A stretch of 64,000 nt of DNA from positions 62,001 through 126,000 of the forward strand of contig LJUJ01000001.1 of the NCBI GenBank assembly GCA_001303785.1, read 5' to 3'. Below are positions 8,005 to 62,980 of the stretch, in pieces. The stretch comes from Caldifarciminota bacterium SM23_42 (lineage in GTDB: Bacteria > Hydrothermota > Tepidihabitantia > SM23-42). Position 1 is the first letter of the stretch. The number at the start of each line of letters is the position of its first letter. The position numbers and the translations under genes were made by a program. The notes under the pieces were generated by a model. The model had not been told where the DNA came from. It was given only the letters and a program-made list of their open reading frames with translations, and did not search any database.

Positions 8005-9579
8005 TTAATGCGGATGGTACCGTAATGGGCAAGCCAAACAGCGCGCTGCCTCATTCATTAGCTCTTCTCTCTTTGCCCACAGCTCAACTTCCTTGAAGTC
8101 GCCTTTTCTTTCCTCGATATCACGGTGAGGAATGGTGATTCGTGGTGTTTCTGTAAGAGGAAGTAGTCTCACCTTCGGACTGTAGGTTTTCCTGAATAGT
8201 GTTACAAGAAAGATTGGCAGGCCCCTCAAATGCGCGTCGATGCGCCTAGCGGCATTCATACCGTGACCCACGGCGTGGGCGATAGTTGCGCTTCCTAGGA
8301 CGACATCGCCGCCCGCAAAGATTTTTTGGTGTGACGTCTTTCCATTCTTTGTCTTAATATGTCTATTTTTATCGAATTTTACGAGGTCCTTAAGAAAATC
8401 AGTCTCGGGATGCTGCCCAATCGCCATAACTACGGTATCCAATTTGACTTCAAATTCGCTTCCTTCAATTTTCTTTACTTGACCCTTTCTACCTTCTGCA
8501 CATTCGGTTCTGAGCAATGTGATTTTATGTTTCTCTATTTTGACGGGAACAACTAGAGGAATGATTTCCACGCCTTCTTCCTTTGCTTCTTCAAGATTCT
8601 CATGCTCAGCAGGCATATCTTCGATGTTCCGGCGGTAGTATATTGCGACCTGGTGTCCTTCCCGTATTAGGCTACGTGCAATGTCAATCGCGGTATTACC
8701 GCCGCCGATGATGCCGACCTTACCGAGATGGTATAACTCACCTTTTTTGATACGTCTAAGTACATCAAAACCATCCAACGCATTCTCTTCTCCATGGATA
8801 CCAAGTTTTATCGGTTTCCACACACCGGTCGCGACAAAGACAGCATCGTAATCCCGTAGTAGTTCTTCTATTGATACGTCCTTGCCAATCTCTACTCCAC
8901 ACTTTAGTTCGAATTTCAAGGTCATTAGGGTTTCAATTTCTTGATCGAGGACAGCCTGAGGGTGACGAAATTCTGGGATGAGTATGCCTAACACGCCGCC
9001 CGGTTTTTCTTCGCGTTCGTAGACCGTCACTCTGTATCCTCTATGTGAGAGATAATACGCGGCACTAAGTCCACATGGTCCGGCACCGACTATGGCTACC
9101 TTTTTTTTCTTCGGCTTGTGTCTGTGGACAGGCAGTATAGTCTTGACGCCGGCTCGCAAGTAGCGTATCGCTACTGGTGCGTCTATGCCTCTTCTCGTAC
9201 AATGACTCTCACACGGCGCAAGACAGATTCTTCCTAGTGTATCGAAAAAAGGTACATAAGGGTAACGTTCCTCGCTGTCGGTTGCAAGATGGTTTATGTA
9301 AGCCCAGGGCATAATACCTGCCGGGCATATTTTCTCGCAGGGTGGCTTTTGGTATCGGAACCCCTTGTGCGCATCGAGAATGTTGTAGAGCCAGATTAAT
9401 ACCCAGGCGGCCAAGAGTCCCCAAAATGCTTGGTTGATGCCGGTCCAGATAATAACCATGAGGGCTATCGAACCATAGAAAATGGCGGCGAATGCGATGC
9501 CTGTCCATAACCTACCCGCATAGATTTGCCCAGCACCGACTATGAAGGTTGATAAGAGGGCTGTTCTACCTGACTTCAT
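8005..9579 (-). CDS. Membrane-anchored GltD-like NAD(P)H/FAD oxidoreductase
   Basis: 524 residues. An N-terminal part (about 1-75) has a GAGQIYAGRLWTG loop and two to three hydrophobic helices, like TM2-type small membrane modules. Next come the Fe-S cysteines typical of the glutamate-synthase small subunit/dihydropyrimidine dehydrogenase N-terminus (CEKICPAG and CLAPCESHCTRRG). Then follow the FAD site VAIVGAGPCGLSAAYYLSHRG and the NAD(P) site VGIIGGGNTAIDIARS, with the second FAD motif IFAGGDVVLGSATIAHAVGHG. A last CLACP follows. This is the electron-input subunit of this enzyme group, but no partner glutamate synthase large subunit is present. It overlaps the NapH-like gene by 14 bp, which suggests that NAD(P)H electrons are passed to that Fe-S membrane protein. 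Confidence 0.87.
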   Translation of the reverse strand: MKSGRTALLSTFIVGAGQIYAGRLWTGIAFAAIFYGSIALMVIIWTGINQAFWGLLAAWVLIWLYNILDAHKGFRYQKPPCEKICPAGIMPWAYINHLATDSEERYPYVPFFDTLGRICLAPCESHCTRRGIDAPVAIRYLRAGVKTILPVHRHKPKKKKVAIVGAGPCGLSAAYYLSHRGYRVTVYEREEKPGGVLGILIPEFRHPQAVLDQEIETLMTLKFELKCGVEIGKDVSIEELLRDYDAVFVATGVWKPIKLGIHGEENALDGFDVLRRIKKGELYHLGKVGIIGGGNTAIDIARSLIREGHQVAIYYRRNIEDMPAEHENLEEAKEEGVEIIPLVVPVKIEKHKITLLRTECAEGRKGQVKKIEGSEFEVKLDTVVMAIGQHPETDFLKDLVKFDKNRHIKTKNGKTSHQKIFAGGDVVLGSATIAHAVGHGMNAARRIDAHLRGLPIFLVTLFRKTYSPKVRLLPLTETPRITIPHRDIEERKGDFKEVELWAKREELMNEAARCLACPLRYHPH

Positions 9580-10360
9580 GTTTAATCGCCTTGGTTGGAC
9601 AAATCTTTACACAATCCAGGCAGCGTATGCAGTCGATGTCGTGCTGATGGCGGTATATGCCTACGTGCATGGGACATACCATCTGACAGGATTCACACGC
9701 GATACATTTATCTTTGTCGACCTTCAATCTCCATACACTGAAGCGGTTGAAAATCGAGTATATAGCACCGACCGGACAGAATGTTCGGCAGAAGAATCTC
9801 TTGATGGATATAGAAAAGAGAATTATGCCCAGTAGTATTGCGATTTTCATGTAGTAATGCCAACCAACTAGCGCCCGTAGATCGCCCGTAGTGTCGGCAA
9901 GAACAAGGGGTATGCCGGCAATCAAGGCGCCATCCGGACAAAGCTTGCAAAACCATGGTTCTGCTGTGATATAGGCAATTACTCCGGCAACCCCGACGAG
10001 CACGACGTATTTGAAGTATGAGAAGACCTTGGGTAGTTTCATCTTGAAGGATTTGATCTTGTAAAGGAGGTCCTGGAAGAATCCGAAAGGACATATCCAG
10101 CCACAGGTCATTCTTCCGACAACCATACCGACGGTTCCAAAAAGACCGGCGACATAGAAGGGAAATAGCCTCAGCCCTATGAAGTGCTGCAGACCGCCCA
10201 TTGGGCACGAATACCAGGCAAGTGGACATCCCCAGCAGTTCAGAATCGGTGTGCAAGCTCGCTTTAAAACTCCCTGGTATATCCCGCCGGCAAAGAAGGC
10301 TGGGATATAGGAATTCTGTATTATTGTGGCGATGATTTGGACGGTACGTTTCAGCTTCAC
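9566..10360 (-). CDS. NapH/MauN-type membrane 4Fe-4S protein
   Basis: About 264 residues. The family hallmark CGWICPFGFFQDLLYK and a second CRTFCPVGAIYS are present, with a further CWGCPLAWYSCP cluster near the N-terminus and two C-terminal ferredoxin sites (CIACESCQMVCP and CIRCLDCVKICP). Hydrophobic helices lie between them. NapH-like proteins carry electrons between the quinone pool or cytoplasmic donors and the periplasm. The start is GTG at 10360, overlapping the TGA of the small CXXC gene (GTGA); an open frame reaches an ATG at 10384 but is inside that gene. Gene order flavoprotein, NapH-like, CXXC peptide suggests one electron-transfer unit. Confidence 0.9.
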   Translation of the reverse strand: MKLKRTVQIIATIIQNSYIPAFFAGGIYQGVLKRACTPILNCWGCPLAWYSCPMGGLQHFIGLRLFPFYVAGLFGTVGMVVGRMTCGWICPFGFFQDLLYKIKSFKMKLPKVFSYFKYVVLVGVAGVIAYITAEPWFCKLCPDGALIAGIPLVLADTTGDLRALVGWHYYMKIAILLGIILFSISIKRFFCRTFCPVGAIYSIFNRFSVWRLKVDKDKCIACESCQMVCPMHVGIYRHQHDIDCIRCLDCVKICPTKAIKHEVR

Positions 10361-10500
10361 TCGATTCCCATACAGGAAAGGCACATAACTGAACCGACAG
10401 TTTCGGTTTCAATGAAATCGCCGAGCTTACCACCGTACCAGATACCACCTACGAACACAAGTGTTACGATAATCATAAGGATGAGGAATAGTCTTCTCAT
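10357..10500 (-). CDS. CD1871A-like CXXC microprotein
   Basis: A 47-residue gene, too short for ordinary ORF lists: MRRLFLILMIIVTLVFVGG forms one membrane helix, followed by a short linker and the C-terminal CLSCMGIE. This resembles the small CD1871A family (one helix, then ICLECIGIG at the end), which I recall as neighbours of NapH-like Fe-S genes. The ribosome site AAGGAG is well placed before the ATG. Its TGA overlaps the GTG of the next gene. The helix plus terminal CXXC suggests a membrane thiol carrier working with the NapH-like protein; the exact role is unknown. Confidence 0.85.
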   Translation of the reverse strand: MRRLFLILMIIVTLVFVGGIWYGGKLGDFIETETVGSVMCLSCMGIE

Positions 10501-10640
10501 TTAGACTCCTTGTGCTCCATGGTTATATGTTAAATGTCTAACGGTGTGGCTGCCAGTATGGTTGAATGGCTTGGTCTTTTAACGCGCCCAATAACGGTAG
10601 ACCATACAGGTTACCATGCCGTACAACAACCAACGATGTC

Positions 10641-12161
10641 TTAAAAGATGCTCGTTAATACCAACTTGACACCTTTAAATGGTTCCTCGAAACGACAGAC
10701 ACCGCCGGTGCATACAAGTCCGCCTTTTTCTGCACCCACACGGATACGCAGGTTGTGACGTGTCGTAAGGTCGAGGCTCAGCTCGGCAAGGGGCCAGTTT
10801 GTTTCAGGACCTATTTTCTTAAGATCGACCAGCCATTGCGGCGCCCGATTCCGCTTTTCGTACCTCAGGGTGAGTACGAATAATTCCGGTTTCCCTATGG
10901 ATAGGGCAAGTGCTTGGTCATAATAATCGCTTGTGTCACTGGTTACAAATTCGATCTGATATTCAGAACCCACGAAAAATGCACCGAAATTATAACTGAC
11001 TTCCACATGGGGCTTGGTTTCGGTTTTCTTCGCTATAGGAACTTCGATGCCCTGTTTTACGACCTTCTCGATAGCCGCGGTTACTTCTAGTTCATAGGTG
11101 GGATAAGTCGTTATTTTCGCAGCTTGTTCGGTCACGGCATCCATGGTTTCGTTGGTGATGAAAAACTGCTCGAATTTGTTCAATGTAGTATCGTGAGTGC
11201 TGATTTTATTGTTGTCCAATTCGATTGTCATGAAATCAAACGGTGAATACAGTACAGATAAACCGAAACCTATCTCATCTACCCCGCGATTCACAGAAAT
11301 ACCTGTTTTAATGGGTGTCACCGGTTCGTTGTAACGGTAGGTTTTGTTGTAGGGGAACCCGATCGTATCATAATCCATTGCCTGGAAAGTAATGCCAAAC
11401 CCTGGCAGGGCAAGGCTGGAGCTAAACAGTACCCCGTATCCCTTCAATCTGCCGCCGAGACCAGGATACGTGCCTAACTGCTGTGCATATTCAATATATG
11501 CATCAAAGGGACCAGTCCTGAACCCTAGATTTCCGCCATAAAGTTCTGTGAATGCCTCGGGTGTTATGTCTATGTCCCGGTTAATTCGGACATAACGTCC
11601 TCCCAAAGTAACCTTTGGAATGATTTTAGTTTCGAGATCTAGCCCGCGGATCTGTGCAGTTGTGTCATCATCGTTCTTTATGCCGTAAGTGTTTTCTTCG
11701 AAAAAGACATTCCTTGGTTTACCCGAAAGCAGTGTTAGTTGCGTATTAAAGTAATTGAACCCGGTCTGTATGCCAAACAATGATTTGTCTATTTTGAAAT
11801 CCTCATCAACAAACTGATTGAGCACCATACCTCGTCCAAACGTCTTATTGAAGCGGCCGTAGAGTACACTTACCGGGTCCTTGTGATACTGAACACTGTA
11901 GTCGATATAGGAGAGTTTCCGTGGATTTGGCAGGGAGGGGTCAGAAAAAAAGAAAGTGCCGCGCAGCGCGATATCGCCGTAGCTTAGACTCACCTTCAGT
12001 TTGTCTTCGATGTGCTCCTGGTAGTTCGTATCGCCTTCTTCATTTTCGTAGAACACCCAGTATTCGCCATAATTTGCACCGCTCAGCCGCAGGCTTTGCG
12101 CATATAGCGCGGGAATCGAGAAAGCAAGTAGGACTATGACCATGAGCGTAATTCTTCTCAT
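10641..12161 (-). CDS. DUF6029-like outer-membrane protein
   Basis: About 506 residues with a signal peptide (ITLMVIVLLAFSIPALYAQ). The mature part looks like a large beta-barrel: YGEYWVFYE near the N-terminus, GRFNKTFGRGMVLNQF, and many Tyr/Gly strands, ending in aromatic Phe (VKLVLTSIF). This pattern is close to the DUF6029 family of Bacteroidetes and relatives. A late pair VCTGGVC could form a disulfide. The ATG at 12161 is one base after the TlpA stop (TAGCATG), so it is coupled; an upstream frame adds ten residues inside tlpA. It is the third gene of the operon with the TlpA-like thioredoxin and the Omp28-like selenoprotein. Confidence 0.8.
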   Translation of the reverse strand: MRRITLMVIVLLAFSIPALYAQSLRLSGANYGEYWVFYENEEGDTNYQEHIEDKLKVSLSYGDIALRGTFFFSDPSLPNPRKLSYIDYSVQYHKDPVSVLYGRFNKTFGRGMVLNQFVDEDFKIDKSLFGIQTGFNYFNTQLTLLSGKPRNVFFEENTYGIKNDDDTTAQIRGLDLETKIIPKVTLGGRYVRINRDIDITPEAFTELYGGNLGFRTGPFDAYIEYAQQLGTYPGLGGRLKGYGVLFSSSLALPGFGITFQAMDYDTIGFPYNKTYRYNEPVTPIKTGISVNRGVDEIGFGLSVLYSPFDFMTIELDNNKISTHDTTLNKFEQFFITNETMDAVTEQAAKITTYPTYELEVTAAIEKVVKQGIEVPIAKKTETKPHVEVSYNFGAFFVGSEYQIEFVTSDTSDYYDQALALSIGKPELFVLTLRYEKRNRAPQWLVDLKKIGPETNWPLAELSLDLTTRHNLRIRVGAEKGGLVCTGGVCRFEEPFKGVKLVLTSIF

Positions 12162-12162
12162 G

Positions 12163-12672
12163 CTACTGCTCACAATTCCCACCTTGCTCATAGAGTTCTC
12201 GGACCTTGGCGATAATCAATTCTTCATCGCCGGGTTTATACCCCTGATGGGTGAATACGATTTTCTTGTTTTGGTCAATTATGAAGAAAGTAGGCATTGC
12301 CTGAACATTGTATAACTCCCGCATGGTATTCTCTGGGTCAAGGACAACCTGGTACGTCCACTTGTGGCTTGTCGCAAACGGTTTTACCTTTGGTACTGAC
12401 CTTGTCTTATCTTGACTGATTGCCAAAAGGGTTATATTCAGAGAATCGAATTCTTCAGAGTAGGGTCTTAGTGCATCTAACTCCTTGATGCACATCTTGC
12501 ACCATAATGCCCAAAAACTCACTAAAACAGGGCCTTCGGCAAGCAGCGAGTCGAGATTGACAATCTTCCCGTCAACATCTTCCAAGGTGAAACCTGGAGC
12601 GTCAGCCGTTGCTCCTTCCTCAGCAAAAGCAAAAACTAAAGGTATAAGCAATATCAACGAAAACGCTTTCAT
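12163..12672 (-). CDS. Periplasmic TlpA/ResA-type thioredoxin
   Basis: 169 residues: a signal peptide (AFSLILLIPLVFAFA), then a thioredoxin fold with the active site FWALWCKMCIKELD and the cis-Pro loop VQAMPTFFIID. Such proteins exchange thiols and disulfides outside the cytoplasmic membrane. Its ATG overlaps the TGA stop of the preceding selenoprotein gene (ATGA), so the two are coupled. The site is CKMC with normal Cys codons. It may donate electrons to, or receive them from, the UGFC site of its neighbour; that is inference. Confidence 0.93.
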   Translation of the reverse strand: MKAFSLILLIPLVFAFAEEGATADAPGFTLEDVDGKIVNLDSLLAEGPVLVSFWALWCKMCIKELDALRPYSEEFDSLNITLLAISQDKTRSVPKVKPFATSHKWTYQVVLDPENTMRELYNVQAMPTFFIIDQNKKIVFTHQGYKPGDEELIIAKVRELYEQGGNCEQ

Positions 12673-13388
12673 TGTACCTCCTCAAAATCCCTGGTGATTG
12701 CGTGCATAACTTTCTTGCTGTCCGTGTTTTGAATGAATACGACCGCCCTCATCTGCTCAACTGGAATGCCATGGTTGAACACAATGTTTGTATCGAGGGT
12801 GTCCGGATAGACCAGGTCAATCGGAAAACTGTAAAGTTGCTGGCACACGTAACTGAAAAAAGGGAGGAGGAATCCGCGAATACTGTCTTGGCAAATTGCA
12901 ATGTATGTGAGCATTTCCCCCGCGGGTATCGTGTCAGCCGTCACTATCGTTAGCTGCAGGTTCCCAGCAGTCGGTGTTGCTGTGGCCGTGAGTTCGAGGT
13001 TATATTGCGGCGTGTCTGCTTTGGCCGCCTGTATGTGGTCAGTGTAAGTGGTAAGATATGCATCCGGGTTGGGTTCAAAGACTTCATCCGTGCCGTCGAA
13101 TACAACGGTCGGATAATCAGGAATTCCGATTCCATAAAAAAGTGAGCGCTGGTCGACTATGGCTGCGGGACAGAATGTGTGATTATAGGATATTACTGCT
13201 AGAGAATCGCCATAGATTTTCACAAGGCTATCGAGCGCTTGCTCCGCAAGCGCGCAGAAACCTCAACCGTCATCCGTAAAGAATTCGGCTAGTACTGTGC
13301 GGTTTGTTGGCGCAGGAAGCTCTGGTGCCTCTGAACAGAGTATAAGAAAAACAGCCAATATAGGCACTAAGGTAATGATTTTCTTCAT
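12669..13388 (-). CDS. Omp28-like lipoprotein, predicted selenoprotein (UGFC)
   Basis: 239 codons when the in-frame TGA at 13263-13265 is read through; normal ORF calling sees only the part after residue 55. The protein has a lipoprotein signal (LAVFLILC, lipid Cys at 18), then VLAEFFTDDG-U-GFCALAEQALDSL, in which U42 replaces the first Cys of the CxxC of Omp28-type thioredoxin-like proteins (usual form EFTG-WCGYCP). Codons before and after the TGA are in one frame and one domain. A perfect SECIS hairpin starts nine nucleotides after the UGA. The gene ends with a true TGA overlapping tlpA. A pseudogene reading is possible but does not explain the hairpin, the motif position or the four parallel cases. 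Confidence 0.87.
13235..13253 (-). promoter_or_regulatory. Bacterial SECIS hairpin of the UGFC selenoprotein
   Basis: In the mRNA GCGCTTGC pairs perfectly with GCAAGCGC around a GGA loop. The loop begins 18 nt after the UGA and its first two bases are G. Size, distance and G rule fit the bSECIS consensus as I know it (loop 3-14 nt, 16-37 nt from UGA). Confidence 0.82.
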
Positions 13389-13393
13389 CGACT

Positions 13394-13421
13394 ATTATAC
13401 AAACAAATGCCAATCTGTCAA
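13394..13421 (-). promoter_or_regulatory. Consensus promoter, nearly leaderless
   Basis: TTGACA (13416-13421), 16 bp, TATAAT (13394-13399). Only five bases separate the -10 box from the ATG at 13388, so transcription should begin at or beside the start codon and the mRNA is predicted to be leaderless. No ribosome site is present. Confidence 0.85.
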
Positions 13422-13447
13422 TATGCTGGCAGTATGGAGCAAAAAAA

Positions 13448-13471
13448 GGGGAGCAGTAAAGCCTGCTCCCC
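13448..13471. terminator. Bidirectional intrinsic terminator
   Basis: GGGGAGCAG and CTGCTCCCC pair around a short loop, with an A tract before and a T tract after. It ends the minus-strand gene that stops at 13494. Confidence 0.9.
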
Positions 13472-13493
13472 TTTTTCGTCGAGATTGTTGGCC

Positions 13494-15413
13494 TTATTCA
13501 ACGAGAATTATCTTCTGCGTTTCCGCGTGATTTTCGGTATTTAGCCTCACAAAGTATATGCCTGCTGGCAGCCTGCGACCTTGACCATCAGTGCCATTCC
13601 ACATTACTGATAACTGATCACCGATAGCTGATAACTGCTGAGAGAGGTTTTTAACCAGGCGACCAGAGATGTCGAATATCTTCAATTCTGCTTTGCTGTT
13701 ATCTATTATCTGGTATCTGATGTCTGTAAAGGTACTGAACGGATTTGGAACTACCGAGAGGGTCGCCTTCTTGACCCCTAGTTCAGTAATTTCCTCCACC
13801 GCAGTCAGGTTTATGCCGAAGAAATGCATAATCGAGTCCAGTAATGCGGCCTTAGTCGACACACCGGTGCCGTCAACCAGCCCGCCAAGCTCGAATGATG
13901 TCCCGACCGTCTTGTGTGTGCCGGCATCGTTTGCAACGCCGACCGTGTCCGTATTGGCTGCATTCCGCAGAATTGAGAAGCCGGTACCAGTTGCCCTCAG
14001 GTGATCTATATAGCTATTCTCACCTGAATAACCGAAGCTCATGCCTTCGGTGAATGTTGTGGCCGTTCCGGCAACCGTGAAGAGATCGCCTGAACCATCA
14101 CCAAGTGGCTGGATACCAAATAGAGGGCCGAAATTGTAACCCGACGGTGGGTCAAAATACCAGACATCACCACCTTCAAGATACACATTGCCGCCGTTAT
14201 TGATGTAGTCGACCAGCGCAAGTGCCTCAGGACTTGAGGCTCCGATAATATGATTGTACGAATAGATACCAACGCAAACAAAGATGGCCTCGTACACATC
14301 AATCGGATCTCCGGCGAGCAGAGCAGTGCTCTGTATACCCGTATATCCCAAGGCGGTTAGTATGCTATCTATTCTTTGTCCAGACATTGGCGTTGGGTCA
14401 GGATTCCATACGAGGTAGTGATAGGTGCCTATTGTGATACAGAATTCAAACGTATCAGCAAATGCACCTTCAGTAGCAATGAGTTGAATGCCTGCAACAT
14501 GACCGTTCGGTGTTGATGCGTCGGCAGAAATGACATACGGATCGCCGATGTTCTCTGCCGTGCTGTCGACGGCCAGATATCCGAAATAGCCTGCATTATC
14601 GGTGATTGTGATGTAAGGGTCAGAACATTCGATGGTCGTGGAAAGGTTGGTAAAGTCTACGCCGCCGAAATTCCTTAAGGTCGAGGTCATATCTGCTGTC
14701 TCGCCCGGATCTAATCTTCCGTTAACATTTCCACCGACATCATAGATGTCAGATCGGACACTACTAAGATAGGGATTTGTGCCTGTATAGTTCAGGGCAA
14801 TGTCGTCAGCGAGGACCCTCGCTGTGCAATGCCCACTTCAACACCCATTCGTAGTATCGAATAGGGCAACCTGGATTTTTAAGATGTCTGGTGGATTCAC
14901 ACCGGGTACGTTTGCCAGCTCGTCGTTTACATTGAACGAGTAGTTAAACCAGTTATTTGTATCCGCGGCGAGGATGAGATTCACCGTGCTGGAACTCGTC
15001 CAAAAGCAGTGCGGTGTTGGCCAACAGATTCGCGTGTCGCCGAGTACGTTGTCGTTTTCATCAAGGTATCTGATGAGAATTGCCGCCGCTGCCCAATACG
15101 GAGCGCTTGGATTAAGTTCACGCGCCGATAGTCTTGCATCCACCGTGAACTCCAGATCGGCCAGAGACATGGTTGTTGGTATCGACACTGTTTGGTGTAA
15201 TTTCGCGTGCGTAGCATCGTATTTTTTCACTCTTGCTTCAAAATCAGGATCGGGATTGAAACCAAGGCCTCGATCAATGGTATCGGTAATATACTGCGTT
15301 CCAATTCCTTCAGTCCAACCGTTTGATAGTTCTTGCTCGAAATCGCCATTAGTAAGGAGCATTCCGGCGCTGGCTAATCCACACATGAGGAGTAGAGAAA
15401 GGTATCGGTGCAT
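13494..15413 (-). CDS. Secreted carbohydrate-binding-like protein, predicted selenoprotein, type-A sorting domain
   Basis: 639 codons when TGA at 14838-14840 (residue 192) is decoded; otherwise it splits into 191- and 398-residue pieces. A signal peptide (LLLMCGLASA) is followed by a CBM-like jelly-roll domain starting LTNGDFEQELSNGW. Near its end is NGCUSGHC, with Cys on both sides of U192. Ig-like and ThuA/gingipain-like regions follow (LVWNPDPTP, NNGGNVYLEGGDVWY). The C-terminal 90 residues are the type-A sorting domain (VVPNPFSTFTDIRY, LKIFDISGRLVKNL, WNGTDGQG, GIYFVRLN). The second fragment has no signal or start of its own, which argues against two genes. The ATG at 15413 follows AAGGAG, 10 bp after the upstream gene. 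Confidence 0.85.
14807..14824 (-). promoter_or_regulatory. Bacterial SECIS hairpin (GGUC loop)
   Basis: CAGCGAG pairs with CTCGCTG around GGUC, the same four-base loop I know from Escherichia coli fdhF. Twenty nucleotides separate the UGA from the loop. Partial outer pairing (GGGCA with TGCCC) extends it. Confidence 0.84.
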
Positions 15414-15423
15414 ATCAACTCCT

Positions 15424-16479
15424 TTATTGCACTACCACTTTTCCCGTAGTCTTGATTTCGGTGCTTTCGAAGCGATACAAGTATACACCGGCACTCACAC
15501 GGGTACCTTGTTCATTGTTGAGATTCCAGGTGACTGTCTCTTCATTGCCCGAAGAGATACCGTGCATCGTTTTAACCTCACGCCCACTTACATCATAGAA
15601 GGTAATGCGATATGCGTCTCCGGCAGGAAGTGTAAATGCGAATCTTGTGCCACTGACACAGGGATTTGGAATCGGCGCGATGTGTGAAGCAGCGATGTCG
15701 TTGTTACCATATTCTTCGACCCCGAGTTCTGCAATGTCGAGGATGGCGCCCTGCCATATTTCAATGGTTGAATCTGATGGGTTCATGTTCAAATCCTGTA
15801 ACCAGGCAACGAATTCAATCATTTCTGGGTTCCAATTGGGTTGAAGGGCAAAGGTTTGACTAATGGTCAGTGAATCGCCAGCCGGGATCGAGACAGTTTC
15901 ACCGTTTTGGTTAGGTAGATAATCACGTGCGACATGATTGTGCCACGGGTCCCCGGCTAAGTATTGGGTATAAATGCTGTCTTCGGTGACAACGAAAATG
16001 GCGCGTCCATTCAGCGTTGCGGTGGAGTCATTGCGGAATTGCGCATAGACCGTGCCTGTTCCTTGTAAGGGCCACCAATCACCCCACATCGTTATGGTGA
16101 CAGGTGCGGATTGGGCCAGACGAGTGACAATCCTTGTTTGCCATGTGCCATAGCTTGTGGTACCTTTGTGCCCATCAAACCATAAATAAGGCGTATAGTA
16201 GCCCCAGCTTCCACCTTGGAAATGAGGCGGTGGATAGGAGTACATTCGTTGCAGCGCCTCAGCGCAATACATGCCAAAGCTGTTATTAACGACATGCATT
16301 TCAACCAGTGCTATTTGTCCTGGATAAGTTAGTGTGATGTTGGCCAGCGTACCGCTGGCAGCCCAGCATCCACTTCAGCCCTCTTGGTACAACTCTTCGC
16401 AGACTACGACGCGCTCGGCCGAGAAGGCAGCTGTGAATAATCCCAAGCCAAGCAAGAGCAAAGCTAGATATTTATGCAT
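15424..16479 (-). CDS. Omp28-like secreted protein, predicted selenoprotein (USGC), type-A sorting domain
   Basis: 351 codons with the TGA at 16375-16377 read as Sec (residue 35). Signal peptide LALLLLGLGLFTAAFSA, then VVVCEELYQEG-U-SGCWAASGTLANI: a thioredoxin-like UxxC motif in the place of the Omp28 CxxC, followed by VEMHVVNNSF and the usual Omp28 middle domain. The C-terminus is a type-A sorting domain (IPNPCVSGTRFAF, ITFYDVSGREVKTM, VSAGVYLYRFES). Without readthrough only residues 61 onward would be called. RBS AAAGGAGG lies 4 nt before the ATG at 16479. First gene of a two-gene operon with the carbohydrate-binding-like selenoprotein. Confidence 0.87.
16343..16359 (-). promoter_or_regulatory. 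Bacterial SECIS hairpin (GUA loop)
   Basis: GCCAGCG pairs perfectly with CGCTGGC around GUA. The loop lies 22 nt after the UGA and starts with G. Confidence 0.82.
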
Positions 16480-16493
16480 AATGCCTCCTTTGG

Positions 16494-16528
16494 GTATAAT
16501 AACCCCTAAAGTTTAGGGGTTATTATAC
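16494..16528. promoter_or_regulatory. Perfect 35-bp palindrome at the selenoprotein operon promoter
   Basis: The arm GTATAATAACCCCTAAA (16494-16510) and its exact reverse complement (16512-16528) flank one central base. The right arm contains the -10 box of the operon promoter, so the palindrome covers the -10 box, start site and leader. It could be an operator for a dimeric repressor, or form a hairpin at the 5' end of the mRNA. Confidence 0.85.
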
Positions 16529-16548
16529 TGGCCGTATTGGAAATGTCA
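16521..16548 (-). promoter_or_regulatory. Consensus promoter of the two-gene selenoprotein operon
   Basis: TTGACA (16543-16548), 16 bp, TATAAT (16521-16526), with start predicted near 16514 inside the palindrome. Leader about 35 nt. Confidence 0.87.
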
Positions 16549-16657
16549 ATGGTTCAGTTTTTACTGGGTGCTTGGCACTTGGCAGAGATTGTATGCCTTG
16601 CTGGCGTACTTCCATGCCGGTTTTGCCAATGATTCTTCGGATTTGATTAACCAAAAA

Positions 16658-16675
16658 GGGCAGCCACGGCTGCCC
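16658..16675. terminator. Bidirectional intrinsic terminator
   Basis: GGGCAGCC and GGCTGCCC pair around two bases, flanked by A5 on the left and a T run on the right. Ends the minus-strand gene stopping at 16699. Confidence 0.88.
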
Positions 16676-16698
16676 TTTTTTCGTCGAGATTGTTGGCC

Positions 16699-18603
16699 TT
16701 ATTCAACGAGAATTATTTTCTGTGTTTCCTTATGATTATCGGTATTCAGTCTCACAAAGTATATGCCTGCTGGTAACCCGCGACCTTGCCCATCAGTGCC
16801 ATTCCATGTCACTGATGACTGATCACCAACTGCAGATAACTGCGCGGAAAAGTCCCTGACCAAACGGCCCGTGACGTCGAATATCCTTAATTCAACTTTG
16901 TTGTTGTCTGTTATCTGATATCCGATATCAGTGAAGCCGCTAAACGGATTTGGAGCAATCGAGAGGGTCACCTTCTCGACGTCGAGTTCAGTAATTTCCT
17001 CCACCGCAGTCAGGTTTATTCCGAAGAAATGCATAATCGAGTCTAGTAATGCGGCCTTAGTCGAAACACCGGTGCCGTCAACCAATCCACCGAGCTCGAA
17101 TGAGGCACCGACCGTCTTGTGTGTTCCGGCGTCGTTTGCAACACCGACTGTGTCCGTAATGTATGTATTCTTCAGGATTGAGAAGCCGGTGCCCGTTGAT
17201 CTCAGGTGATCGATATAGCTGTTCTCGCCAGAATAGGTCATGGTCATGCCTTCGGTAAATGTTGTGGCTATTCCTGAAACCGAGGAGAGATCGGCCGAGC
17301 CATCATTAACCGCTTGAATGCCAAACAGGGGCCCGAAATTGTAGCCCTGCATATAGAGTGGGTCATAGTACCAGACATCCCCGCCCTCGAGGTACATATT
17401 GCCGCCGTTATTGAGATAGTCTGCTAGTGCGTTGGCTTCAGAACTCGTTGCAGTGATGGTATAGTTAGATGCGAAAATGCCGACGCAGACAAAGATTGCT
17501 TGATGTTGATCGAGCGGTTCCTCGGTCAACAAAGTGTTTGAGATGTTACCACTGTAGCCAAGCGATGAAAGGGTGCTGTGGATTGTCTGACCAGGAGTCG
17601 GTGTGGGATCAGGATTCCACACGAGGTAGTGGTAGGAGCCAACGACGACGTTGAAAATGAGAGTATCCGCGAACGCTCCGTCTGCGGCAATCAATTGAAA
17701 TTCAGCAAGATGGCCATTGGGCGTCGATATATCGGCTGATACTACATAAGGATCGTCTGTATTTTCTTTTGTGCTATCAACTGCCAGATAGCCGAAATAG
17801 CCAGAGTTGTCGGTGATGGTAATATAAGGGTCGGTACATACTAATGTCGTGTTGAGATTGGTGAAATCGACGCCGCCGATATTCTTGATCGTGACCGTCA
17901 TATCAACGGTTTCACCCGGATCTATGCGCCCGTTGTTATTGCCGCCTAAATCAATTATGGTATTTGCCAAGCATGCAACGTATGGATCTGTTCCTGTATA
18001 ATTGAGGATGATATCATCGGCGAAGACCTTCGCCTCTTCTGTATCCCCTCAGTCATCCACACATTGAGCGATTAGAGAAAATTGAATCTTTGCGATGTCT
18101 GTTGGGGTTATCCCAGGTAAATTCGTGAGTTCGTCGTTGATGTTGAATGCATACGTATTCCATGATGTGTCTGCGGCTTGAATCACATGGCAGGAATTGT
18201 TATTCACCCATGGGCATGCTACAGTGCGGGCGCATATTCTGGTCCATCCCATAAGTGAATCTGACGCATCCAGATATGAGATTGAGACAGCAGCGCCAGA
18301 CCAGCACTGAGAAGAAGTACCAAAGGCATAGATTTTAGCATTGACTGAGAATTCGAGGTCGGTTGTTGGAATGGGCGTGATTTGGTATAGCTCTACAGAA
18401 CCTGTACCATCGCCTTTGTGCACATATACCTCATAATCAGGGTCAGGATCATAAGTAGTGCTGCGCGTGATTTCCATGATACCAGAACCGGCCATGAGTT
18501 CAGACCACCCGGTGGAGAGCTCGTCTTCGAAGTCGCCGTTGGTAATCAATACACTTGCACTGCCGAAGGTTACCAGCAATAGCAACATAAAGTATCGGTT
18601 CAT
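16699..18603 (-). CDS. Secreted carbohydrate-binding-like protein, predicted selenoprotein, type-A sorting domain
   Basis: 634 codons with TGA at 18049-18051 decoded (residue 185). Paralogue of the gene at 13494-15413 and close to it throughout the second half. Signal peptide MLLLLVTFGSAS, CBM-like domain beginning ITNGDFEDELSTGW, then AQCVDDUGDTEEAKVFADD, where U lies exactly nine residues before the shared ADD and a Cys four residues earlier could pair with it. Middle region with NNGGNMYLEGGDVWY and a sorting domain (APNPFSGFTDIGY, LRIFDVTGRLVRDF, GIYFVRLN). The ATG at 18603 follows AAGGAGGCGTT; an open frame reaches further upstream to 18711 but lies within the promoter. Confidence 0.85.
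18019..18034 (-). promoter_or_regulatory. Bacterial SECIS hairpin (GGUC loop)
   Basis: GGCGAA pairs with TTCGCC around GGUC, 20 nt after the UGA. From the UGA through the hairpin it matches the copy in the next paralogue at all but one base, while flanking codons differ more. Confidence 0.84.
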
Positions 18604-18640
18604 AACGCCTCCTTGTTTCCTGCTTGTTTTCGCTACGCTA

Positions 18641-18668
18641 ATTGTACCAATCTGATGAGGAATGTCAA
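18641..18668 (-). promoter_or_regulatory. Sigma70 promoter
   Basis: TTGACA (18663-18668), 16 bp, TACAAT (18641-18646), for the gene starting at 18603. Leader about 30 nt. Confidence 0.84.
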
Positions 18669-18700
18669 TACTTGACAGTGCGACAACTGTATTTAGAGGA

Positions 18701-18732
18701 GCAGGGGGCAAATCCAGAGATCTGCCCCCTGC
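18701..18732 (-). terminator. Probable terminator hairpin
   Basis: GCAGGGGGCA and TGCCCCCTGC form a ten-base-pair stem downstream of the gene ending at 18773. There is no clean T run, so efficiency is uncertain. Confidence 0.65.
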
Positions 18733-18772
18733 TTATTGTTCAGTGAAGAAGGTGTGGGTACCTAGTATCTCT

Positions 18773-20884
18773 TCATCTCAGTTGAATGATTTTCGTCGTT
18801 TCGGTTCTGTTGGAAGCTTGGACCTGGATGAAATAAACACCTTGGGCCAACGGTTTCAAATGTAACGCGATAGTACCTGTGCCTTGCATCAGACCGAAGT
18901 ATTTCTTCTCAAGCACCCGGCCGAGAATGTCATACAACGTTACTGAAGCGGGTGTTGCGTTAGCAAGGCTGTATTCTAGTGCATATTGACCATCGCGCGA
19001 AATTACTGGATATACTGCAAGCTTGGCGCTCGCCACTTCAGATCGGTTTTCTGCAATCCCAGTCCAAGCCCAGTATCGGTCATAAGCTGAATCGGCATTC
19101 ATTTCTAGATCTGCTAGATCATCGCCACCAATAACTGCAAATGCAACGGCATAGGCTTCACCTGGAGCTAAAGTGAACGGACCTACCGAGTTGCACGCAG
19201 ACCAGTTAAAGGGACGATCTGTTGAAGCATTCTGTATTGTGCCATCCATGAATTGTATCTGGATGTCATCGGGTAAACCCTGGTATGGGTTGACATAGAT
19301 TGCATGGTCAATCAGTGCTAGATTCGCCGCTGCCGTACTGCGCGGTGGATCAAGAATCGCAGTACCTACGTAGGGTGTATTGTAGTACATATAAGCCATA
19401 TTCCGGCTTGCATCAGAAGATCCCTGGTTCTGTGACTGTTGTATGCCAGATCCTATGTTCCAATCCATGAACATTGCGGCGTAGAGATCATTGATTGTCT
19501 GTGAACCGTCGTTTCGCAGAACGAATTTTGTTATCACGAAATCTTCAATCTGAGGAATATTCCATGCCCATGAGTACTGACTACAAACCAAATTCTTTGG
19601 TAAGGAGTGTCCCGCGTCGGTATAAATCGCAATTGAATACTCATCCACATCTTCCGGACCAGGCTCGAACATCCGGATGCGTCCGTCGGGGTCGATAGTT
19701 GTCTGCCAATCCGCGTCGTCTTGCCAGTTTTGCTCGTAGTATTGGTCGACTACGTAGTTGGCATCGGTGCCAACGGCGAAACTGCCGTAATAAAGATGGC
19801 TGCCTTGGCTGGGCGGATAATAGAATCCTACTCCTTCTGAATGGTCAGAGCCCATGTAGCCGATTGCGCCGTGACGGGTCATGCTCAATAGAACGTTGCC
19901 GCAGTCGTGGGTAGCACAATCCAAAAAAGGTGTTCCAATCTGCAGATCGAATTGGATGTCTGTTTGATAAGCATCAGCCGTGACATTCAATGAGAAGTCT
20001 ACCTTTGTCCCAGGTGGCGTGCTGGCACCCGCGGTGACAGAAAATGGGTCGCCTACGTTTTCCGCACTCTCACCTGGTGCGATCATCCCCCAATAGCCGT
20101 TTGCATCATTAATTGTAAGATCGGACGATGTGGAGCTAAGGATACCAGTTACATTGGAGAGTGTATCCTGGCTCATGTTTGTCAAGACTACCGTCAAGGC
20201 AGCCGTTTCGCCAGGATCGAGTATTCGGTTATTGTTGCCAGAAGCATCATCGATGCATACTTCTTCGAGGTGAGCAGCTCGGGGTTCGAGGGTTACGTCA
20301 TCGGCGAAGACCTTCGCCTCTTGTGTATCCCCTCAGTCGTCAAAACATTGAGCGAGTAGAGCTACCTCGATTTTCGCGATTTCTGATGGGGTAATACCGG
20401 GAAGAGATTGTAACTCATCTTCGATGTTAAACGTGTAAGAATGCCATGATGTGTCTGGAGCCTCGATGACATGGCAGGTATCGTTACTGTACCATGGGCA
20501 TGCGATACTAAAGGTGCATATTCTGGTCCACCCTAATACTGCATCCGAAGCATTCAGATATGAGACACAGACTGCAGCACCAGCCCAGCATTGAGAAGAA
20601 GTGGCGAAGATATAGAGTTTTGCATCGACGGAGAATACGAGGTCGGTATGTTCAACGTCCACGGCTTGGAAGAGTGTTACAAAACCATTGCCATCAGCTT
20701 TGTACACATAAGCCTCGTAATCAGGATCAGGGTAATAAGTGGTGCCTCTCGTAATTGTGCCAATGCCAGCAATAGTCTGATCCCAGCCGACTGATAGATC
20801 TTGCTCAAAATCGCCATTCGTCAGCATATTTGCAGCGAAGACGACCCCGGCGAAAATGAGCATGATGACAATTAATTTACGCAT
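18773..20884 (-). CDS. Secreted carbohydrate-binding-like protein, predicted selenoprotein, type-A sorting domain
   Basis: 703 codons with TGA at 20333-20335 decoded (residue 184). Signal peptide LIVIMLIFAGVVFA, then a CBM-like domain (LTNGDFEQDLSVGW) ending AQCFDDUGDTQEAKVFADD; Cys 180 and U184 are in the same C-x3-U arrangement as the neighbour. The second half differs from its paralogues: CATHDCGN, a probable propeller or jelly-roll body (DGRIRMFEPGPEDVDEY), then a sorting domain (VTLYDILGRVLEKK, LAQGVYFIQVQ). The ATG at 20884 follows AAAGGAGGAAC. Transcribed from a strong promoter with a leader of about 145 nt. Confidence 0.85.
20303..20318 (-). promoter_or_regulatory. Bacterial SECIS hairpin (GGUC loop)
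   Basis: GGCGAA pairs with TTCGCC around GGUC, 20 nt after the UGA at 20333-20335; almost the same sequence as the element at 18019-18034. Confidence 0.84.
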
Positions 20885-62886: not shown

Positions 62887-62980
62887 GGAGGCGGATGGGT
62901 GCTGGTGTGCCTGACGGGCTTCAAACCCGGATATCCTTCGAAAGGGGGATGGTAGGTTCGATTCCTACACGCCTCCGCCA
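62887..62980 (+). tRNA. selC: tRNA-Sec (UCA), selC
   Basis: Begins GGAGGCGG and ends CGCCTCC-G-CCA with encoded CCA. The D arm is the long Sec type: GGGTGC-TGGT-GTGCCT, six pairs with wobbles and a four-base loop. The anticodon loop CTTCAAA carries UCA, which reads UGA. The variable arm is long and pairs (ATCC ... GGAT). The T arm is GTAGG-TTCGATT-CCTAC. The 8-bp acceptor has a G-A mismatch at its inner end; otherwise it matches the bacterial tRNA-Sec plan. It proves the genome decodes UGA as selenocysteine. selA, selB and selD are not in the window. Confidence 0.95.

Follow-up and report, generated by a model that had tools for sequence, protein, structure and literature searches.

Five neighbouring candidate selenoprotein genes, three of them with a predicted carbohydrate-binding-module-like domain, in an uncultured WOR-3 bacterium

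Five neighbouring reading frames on the minus strand, P0001 to P0005, each containing exactly one internal TGA codon, were analyzed in contig LJUJ01000001.1 of Caldifarciminota bacterium SM23_42, an uncultured bacterium of candidate division WOR-3 (Stahlbacteria) represented by a metagenome-assembled genome (MAG). The window, that is, the whole stretch of DNA analyzed, is 64,000 nucleotides long and corresponds to C5:62001-126000 of the contig; genomes and loci of relatives are numbered with the prefixes G and L, respectively. The frames and their internal TGA codons were seen where a previous reading of the DNA letters (the sequence-only reading) had placed them (Table 1). They are in all likelihood five genuine selenoprotein genes, in which the in-frame UGA is decoded as selenocysteine (Sec, U). 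With TGA read as Sec, the products are 239 (P0001), 639 (P0002), 351 (P0003), 634 (P0004, from the ATG at 18603) and 703 (P0005) residues long. A selenocysteine insertion sequence (SECIS) hairpin just 3' of the UGA would recruit SelB carrying Sec-tRNA(Sec), and the ribosome would insert Sec. Standard gene callers would probably split these genes in two because the Sec codon reads as a stop, and the calls in such MAGs are probably truncated.

An N-terminal domain of approximately 190 residues is common to P0002, P0004 and P0005, and their three TGA codons fall in a single alignment column, as had been claimed. A profile search for this domain, hereafter the carbohydrate-binding-module-like (CBM-like) domain, in 147 genomes of the same phylum identified it in 52 genomes, 50 of which had TGA. 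Strong matches that span the Sec column contained TGA in 110 of 111 cases, representing 50 genomes and 10 families; the exact codon was checked in 55 distinct members, all of which had TGA as the Sec codon, while for the other matches the TGA is located somewhere inside the match. The only match without TGA, L070, has Cys instead, at ...ETSCPPPFDSVRVLADN, placed within about one residue. Eight further members of the family are encoded in the genome of L070 (G056:C1:2499500-2501300). Alignment A1, which includes members down to 34% identity, has ten invariant columns, and the Sec column is among them. A scan of GTDB with alignment A2, using two short peptide patterns only, yielded 21 loci, mostly titled WOR-3 or Stahlbacteria. 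Within the present genome, the profile search found CBM-like genes in the cluster only.

P0001 (RTVLAEFFTDDGUGFC) and P0003 (RVVVCEELYQEGUSGC) are thioredoxin-like UxxC proteins, and the P0003-type gene was found once in this genome by profile search. Their relatives display either TGA or TGT/TGC at the Sec position, for example RVVLAELFTYARCTYCP and RVVVAEQFTATWCPYCP, with many Cys forms in which UxxC is replaced by CxxC. Thus, in both groups the homologues showed TGA or Cys at the aligned site and no random stops. A P0001 homologue, L153 (G022:C65:5289-6014), has GGA (Gly) at the Sec codon and an intact SECIS-like hairpin, which represents either a recent loss of Sec or a sequence error or variant. 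Two tandem, distant Omp28-like selenoproteins with the motifs UPTC and UPSC were observed at L189 (G138:C1:636100-638700), in another family of the phylum.

The sequence-only reading had also placed a G-loop hairpin after each TGA, and a hairpin with a G-containing loop was indeed located 3' of all five internal TGA codons. As a window-wide control, we collected all TGA codons with at least 20 open codons before and at least 60 after (n = 40). Of these 40 codons, 7 had a stem of at least 6 pairs and a G loop at the distance of a SECIS: the five internal TGAs, another with a weak hairpin (-5.1) and a terminator-like case at 16644. The genes P0001 and P0005 also end on TGA; these terminal codons were rejected as second Sec codons, since no hairpin follows them (-3.9 and -5.3 kcal/mol, respectively).

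Pairing of the stem was conserved across the relatives, with compensatory changes in the CBM-like family. The commonest CBM-like hairpin encodes A-K-V-F-A, and the stem variants GGCGAA/TTCGCC, GGCGGA/TCCGCC, GCGAG/CTCGC, GGCAAA/TTTGCC, GGCTAA/TTAGCC, GGCACA/TGTGCC and GGCGTG/TACGCC are all paired. The residues flanking Val tend to co-vary because their codons pair in the stem, giving the couplings K-F, E-S, R-L, Q-C and W-Y (AKVFA, AEVSA, ARVLA, AQVCA, AWVYA). This rule is obeyed in 48 of the 55 sequences, and the few E-F, R-F and K-L combinations use G-U pairs. Here, RNA structure clearly dictates protein sequence, as the coupled amino-acid changes illustrate. Overall, the CBM-like stem was paired in 99% of cells, with compensatory changes in 21 cells as compared to a mean of 4.9 after shuffling (0 of 500 shuffles reached 21) and 0–3 in slid controls, through which alone the relatedness of the sequences was handled. 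Two of the stem pairs join third codon positions and were paired in 98–100% of cases versus an expected 74–77%, which shows that the protein alone does not explain the conservation of the stem. Folding energies of the whole region, compared with synonymous shuffles, gave a mean z of -2.0, and 26 of 55 were below 0.05. In the P0001 family, Sec members kept 5.65 of 6 pairs and the five Cys sequences 3.6 of 6; in the P0003 family, the corresponding values were 6.41 of 7 and, for a single Cys sequence, 2 of 7.

These results bear on whether the TGA codons could instead be true stops, the genes being pseudogenes or split pairs with downstream halves that are dead or separately translated. TGA is a normal terminator in this genome and ends 7 of the 34 larger open reading frames (ORFs) in the window. 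However, homologues from 10 families of the phylum retain this codon, and TGA only, in the same column, Cys replaces it when the site changes, and a covarying hairpin follows on the 3' side. Based on the conserved TGA and hairpin, the pseudogene or split-gene explanation was rejected as very improbable.

The machinery for Sec insertion is encoded on the same contig. The tRNA-Sec gene selC had been claimed for the window and was matched there, and a search of the genome identified selA, selB and selD as well (Table 1). The selD gene itself reads VKCAGUASK, with Sec at the catalytic position and a fold of -15 kcal/mol 3' of it. A clear tRNA-Sec was identified in 43 of 50 genomes with the CBM-like family versus 12 of 97 without it (p = 7e-19, phylogeny ignored). 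Of the seven family genomes that lack a clear tRNA-Sec, three (G010, G012, G021) contain a full selB. Three other genomes (G006, G013, G001) have selB over the cut-off, yet no CBM-like selenoprotein and no clear tRNA-Sec match were found in them; they either encode other selenoproteins or have a missed selC. If this lineage had reassigned TGA to an ordinary amino acid such as Trp or Gly and used no Sec, the in-frame TGAs would be accounted for; nothing further was found in favour of this. Such a reassignment is contradicted by the presence of selA, selB, selC and selD, by homologues that nearly always have Cys rather than Trp or Gly at the sites, and by the window itself, where only genes with a SECIS hairpin contain in-frame TGA. 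Since TGA still terminates genes, including the 7 of 34 larger ORFs, this explanation was rejected and its probability is practically negligible. Thus, decoding of UGA as Sec is strongly supported on the basis of the comparison across genomes.

A structural model of the N-terminal domain (pLDDT 89.5) displayed a beta-sandwich with Sec in a turn between strands 171-181 and 188-201. Fold matches were obtained to a porphyran-binding CBM (8xmz_A; Z 13.6, rmsd 2.5 A, 134 residues), to CBM16 (2zex_A; Z 12.2, rmsd 3.2 A, 141 residues) and to CBM4-2 (2y64_A; Z 11.5, rmsd 3.1 A, 145 residues). The domain of P0002, P0004 and P0005 is therefore predicted to be a CBM-like beta-sandwich, a likeness of fold that implies no function. 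At the sequence level, P0004 scored 13.9 bits against CBM_4_9 (PF02018), below the gathering cut-off of 25.9 bits, and PF02018 matched 2 of 26 members at E<0.01 (best 9e-4). For residues 320-534 of P0004, the fold is similar to that of class I glutamine amidotransferase-like domains (for example 1wl8; Z 14.2, 177 residues, 3.1 A).

All five proteins have signal-peptide-like N-termini, as read from the sequence. The claim that they are secreted with sorting domains in the style of the type IX secretion system (T9SS) held for P0002 to P0005, whose TIGR04183 type A sorting tails scored 45.8, 33.3, 46.3 and 38.3 bits, respectively (cut-off 23), and failed for P0001, in which the profile search found no such tail. 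The genome encodes SprA (377.6 bits, cut-off 200) and four PorV-family proteins over the cut-off. Together with the tails, this suggests that P0002 to P0005 are likely exported by the T9SS and placed on or through the outer membrane.

How such proteins might act can be proposed from their parts. P0001 and P0003 would be thioredoxin-like UxxC oxidoreductases, whereas P0002, P0004 and P0005 would display Sec in a turn of the beta-sandwich at the surface. The UxxC proteins and the neighbouring pair of a TlpA-type thioredoxin and a DUF6029 protein may pass electrons to the surface Sec domains, or make and break their Se-S bonds. We give an extracytoplasmic thiol/selenol redox module with these parts nearly an even chance. 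The broader proposal, that phylum-wide, almost obligate, non-thioredoxin CBM-like selenoproteins displayed by the T9SS cooperate with Sec-Omp28 and Sec-thioredoxin partners in a selenium-dependent redox system outside the cell, is possible but somewhat doubtful.

In the CBM-like family, Cys is located at position -1 of Sec (CU) in 34 of 55 members and within five residues in 40. If these are true selenoproteins, their Sec might bind a soft metal, a metalloid or a thiophilic ligand at the surface rather than act as a redox catalyst. The 15 members without a nearby Cys partner, the likeness of the fold to binding modules and the vicinal CU of the metal-handling selenoproteins SaoL, HgcA and MbdU (PMC13188914) are consistent with such a role. 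However, the adjoining UxxC oxidoreductases and TlpA suit redox turnover, and no conserved set of metal ligands was shown, so that we consider ligand binding unlikely, though a serious competitor. A further alternative is a structural role, in which Sec would be maintained because it cross-links a surface layer (by Se-S or Se-Se bonds) and the UxxC proteins would act as isomerases. The predicted turn between two strands (residues 181-188), outside any thioredoxin fold, would suit a cross-link, and the T9SS tails imply surface display. No partner was identified, however, and Cys alone is usually enough for a structural bond, which leaves the near-absence of Cys forms unexplained; this alternative is quite improbable.

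Several points weigh against the reading of the five genes as exported selenoproteins with a redox function. Sec insertion is deduced from genome comparison, and the redox function is an inference. The use of the sorting tails is predicted from sequence, and the association with tRNA-Sec ignores the shared ancestry of the genomes. A local Se-S bond cannot be general in the family, since 15 of the 55 CBM-like members lack a Cys within five residues of Sec. Finally, synonymous shuffles of single genes, scored by the best stem anywhere, gave only 2–4 of 55 at p<0.05. This is the chance level, because a 6-pair stem is drowned out when the maximum is taken over positions; the stem signal resides in the family, not in one gene.

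The stop codon of P0001 overlaps the ATG of the next gene, and the order P0001, TlpA, DUF6029 is kept in approximately 20 relatives. A CBM-like gene is located at most 4 kb from a P0001- or P0003-type gene in 23 genomes, and in several genomes it is also near selC. Downstream on the same strand, the region 8005-12672 contains TlpA, DUF6029, a Fer4_5 membrane Fe-S protein and an FAD/NAD(P) oxidoreductase, which could serve as the electron supply for the exported proteins. Elsewhere in the window, a repeated module at 30550-60857 consists of GAF/sigma-54 regulators (33535, 44148, 56380), Ser/Thr kinase-TPR proteins (46950, 57894) and NosD-type beta-helix proteins (30550, 39196, 41404, 49352, 54375).

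Table 1. Location of the candidate selenoprotein genes and associated features. Positions refer to the window, or to the contig where prefixed with C5.
Feature	Position	Strand	Description
P0001	12669..13388	-	Putative exported thioredoxin-like selenoprotein, motif DDGUGFC; SECIS stem retained in homologues with Sec, CxxC at the site in those with Cys
Sec codon TGA of P0001	13263..13265	-	
SECIS hairpin of P0001	13235..13253	-	Loop GGA
P0002	13494..15413	-	Predicted CBM-like Sec domain (NGCUSGHC), other domains of extracellular type, T9SS tail
Sec codon TGA of P0002	14838..14840	-	
SECIS hairpin of P0002	14807..14824	-	Core AGCGAG GGTC CTCGCT
P0003	15424..16479	-	Putative Omp28-like secreted selenoprotein, motif EGUSGC, T9SS tail
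Sec codon TGA of P0003	16375..16377	-	
SECIS hairpin of P0003	16343..16359	-	
P0004	16699..18603	-	Predicted CBM-like Sec domain (CVDDUGD), beta-rich middle, glutamine-amidotransferase-like domain, T9SS tail
Sec codon TGA of P0004	18049..18051	-	
SECIS hairpin of P0004	18019..18034	-	GGCGAA GGTC TTCGCC
P0005	18773..20884	-	Predicted CBM-like Sec domain (CFDDUGD), divergent C-terminal part, T9SS tail
Sec codon TGA of P0005	20333..20335	-	
SECIS hairpin of P0005	20303..20318	-	GGCGAA GGTC TTCGCC
TlpA/AhpC-TSA-type thioredoxin (Cys)	12163..12672	-	Directly downstream of P0001, an adjacency shared by the P0001 homologues of about 20 relatives
DUF6029 protein	10641..12191	-	Conserved neighbour
selC, tRNA-Sec	62887..62980	+	74.3 bits, gathering cut-off 47
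selB	C5:126870-128750		Same contig, 0.9 kb past the window, over cut-off
selA	C5:128969-130321		Same contig, adjoins selB
selD	C5:137617-138522		Same contig, Sec-containing

The sequence-only reading regarded the five proteins as an undescribed group. This applies to the three CBM-like proteins only, because P0001 and P0003 relate to a described group, that of the Omp28-related selenoprotein GOS_C (NF045500). We know of no CBM that contains Sec. None of 26 CBM-like members was matched by an NCBIfam selenoprotein model, and no Pfam selenoprotein model was found to match the family either. Nothing in the 2026 inventory of 119 prokaryotic selenoprotein families, which lists GOS_C/NF045500, was matchable to the CBM-like family, although an earlier detection in the groundwater MAG survey cited there (Deng et al.) is possible (PMC13188914). 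Our literature searches found no relevant paper on selenoproteins in WOR-3 or Stahlbacteria, or on selenoproteins together with Omp28, and the search on selenoproteins and type IX secretion brought up only a nutrition study that is unrelated; no CBM-like selenium-dependent system was found described in the literature searched. Published methods presuppose numerous Cys homologues for nearly every selenoprotein (PMC12013277). Since Cys homologues are nearly absent here (one of 111), the family may have escaped detection by such methods, and families of this kind may be systematically missed. A selenoprotein family outside the thioredoxin fold would add to the list of 119, and the presence of exported selenoproteins in a lineage without cultured members points to surface chemistry that is yet to be described.

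Mammalian-type thioredoxin reductase carries the motif GCUG as a C-terminal tail. The vicinal Cys-Sec pair of 34 of the 55 CBM-like domains, often followed by Gly (TCUGA, HCUGA, SCUGA), is similar to this motif. The likeness is one of resemblance only: the CBM-like Sec is internal in a beta-sandwich, not in a C-terminal tail, and no flavoprotein is involved. The predicted fold of the Sec domain itself is similar to the beta-sandwiches of CBM_4_9, CBM16 and the porphyran-binding CBM. P0001 and P0003 are similar to GOS_C in being thioredoxin-like, exported UxxC proteins. The NF045500 and Omp28 models were among their best matches, and P0003 passed the Omp28 model PF11551 (46.8 bits, gathering cut-off 34.9), whereas a sequence search of the PDB gave no match for either protein. 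With 26.4 bits for P0001 and 41.9 bits for P0003, both scored far under the 200-bit cut-off of NF045500, and P0003 differs further by its T9SS tail. We regard P0001 and P0003 as distant relatives of the known Omp28/GOS_C selenoproteins. Finally, four of the five proteins resemble T9SS cargo proteins in their C-terminal TIGR04183 tail, in a genome that encodes both SprA and the PorV family.

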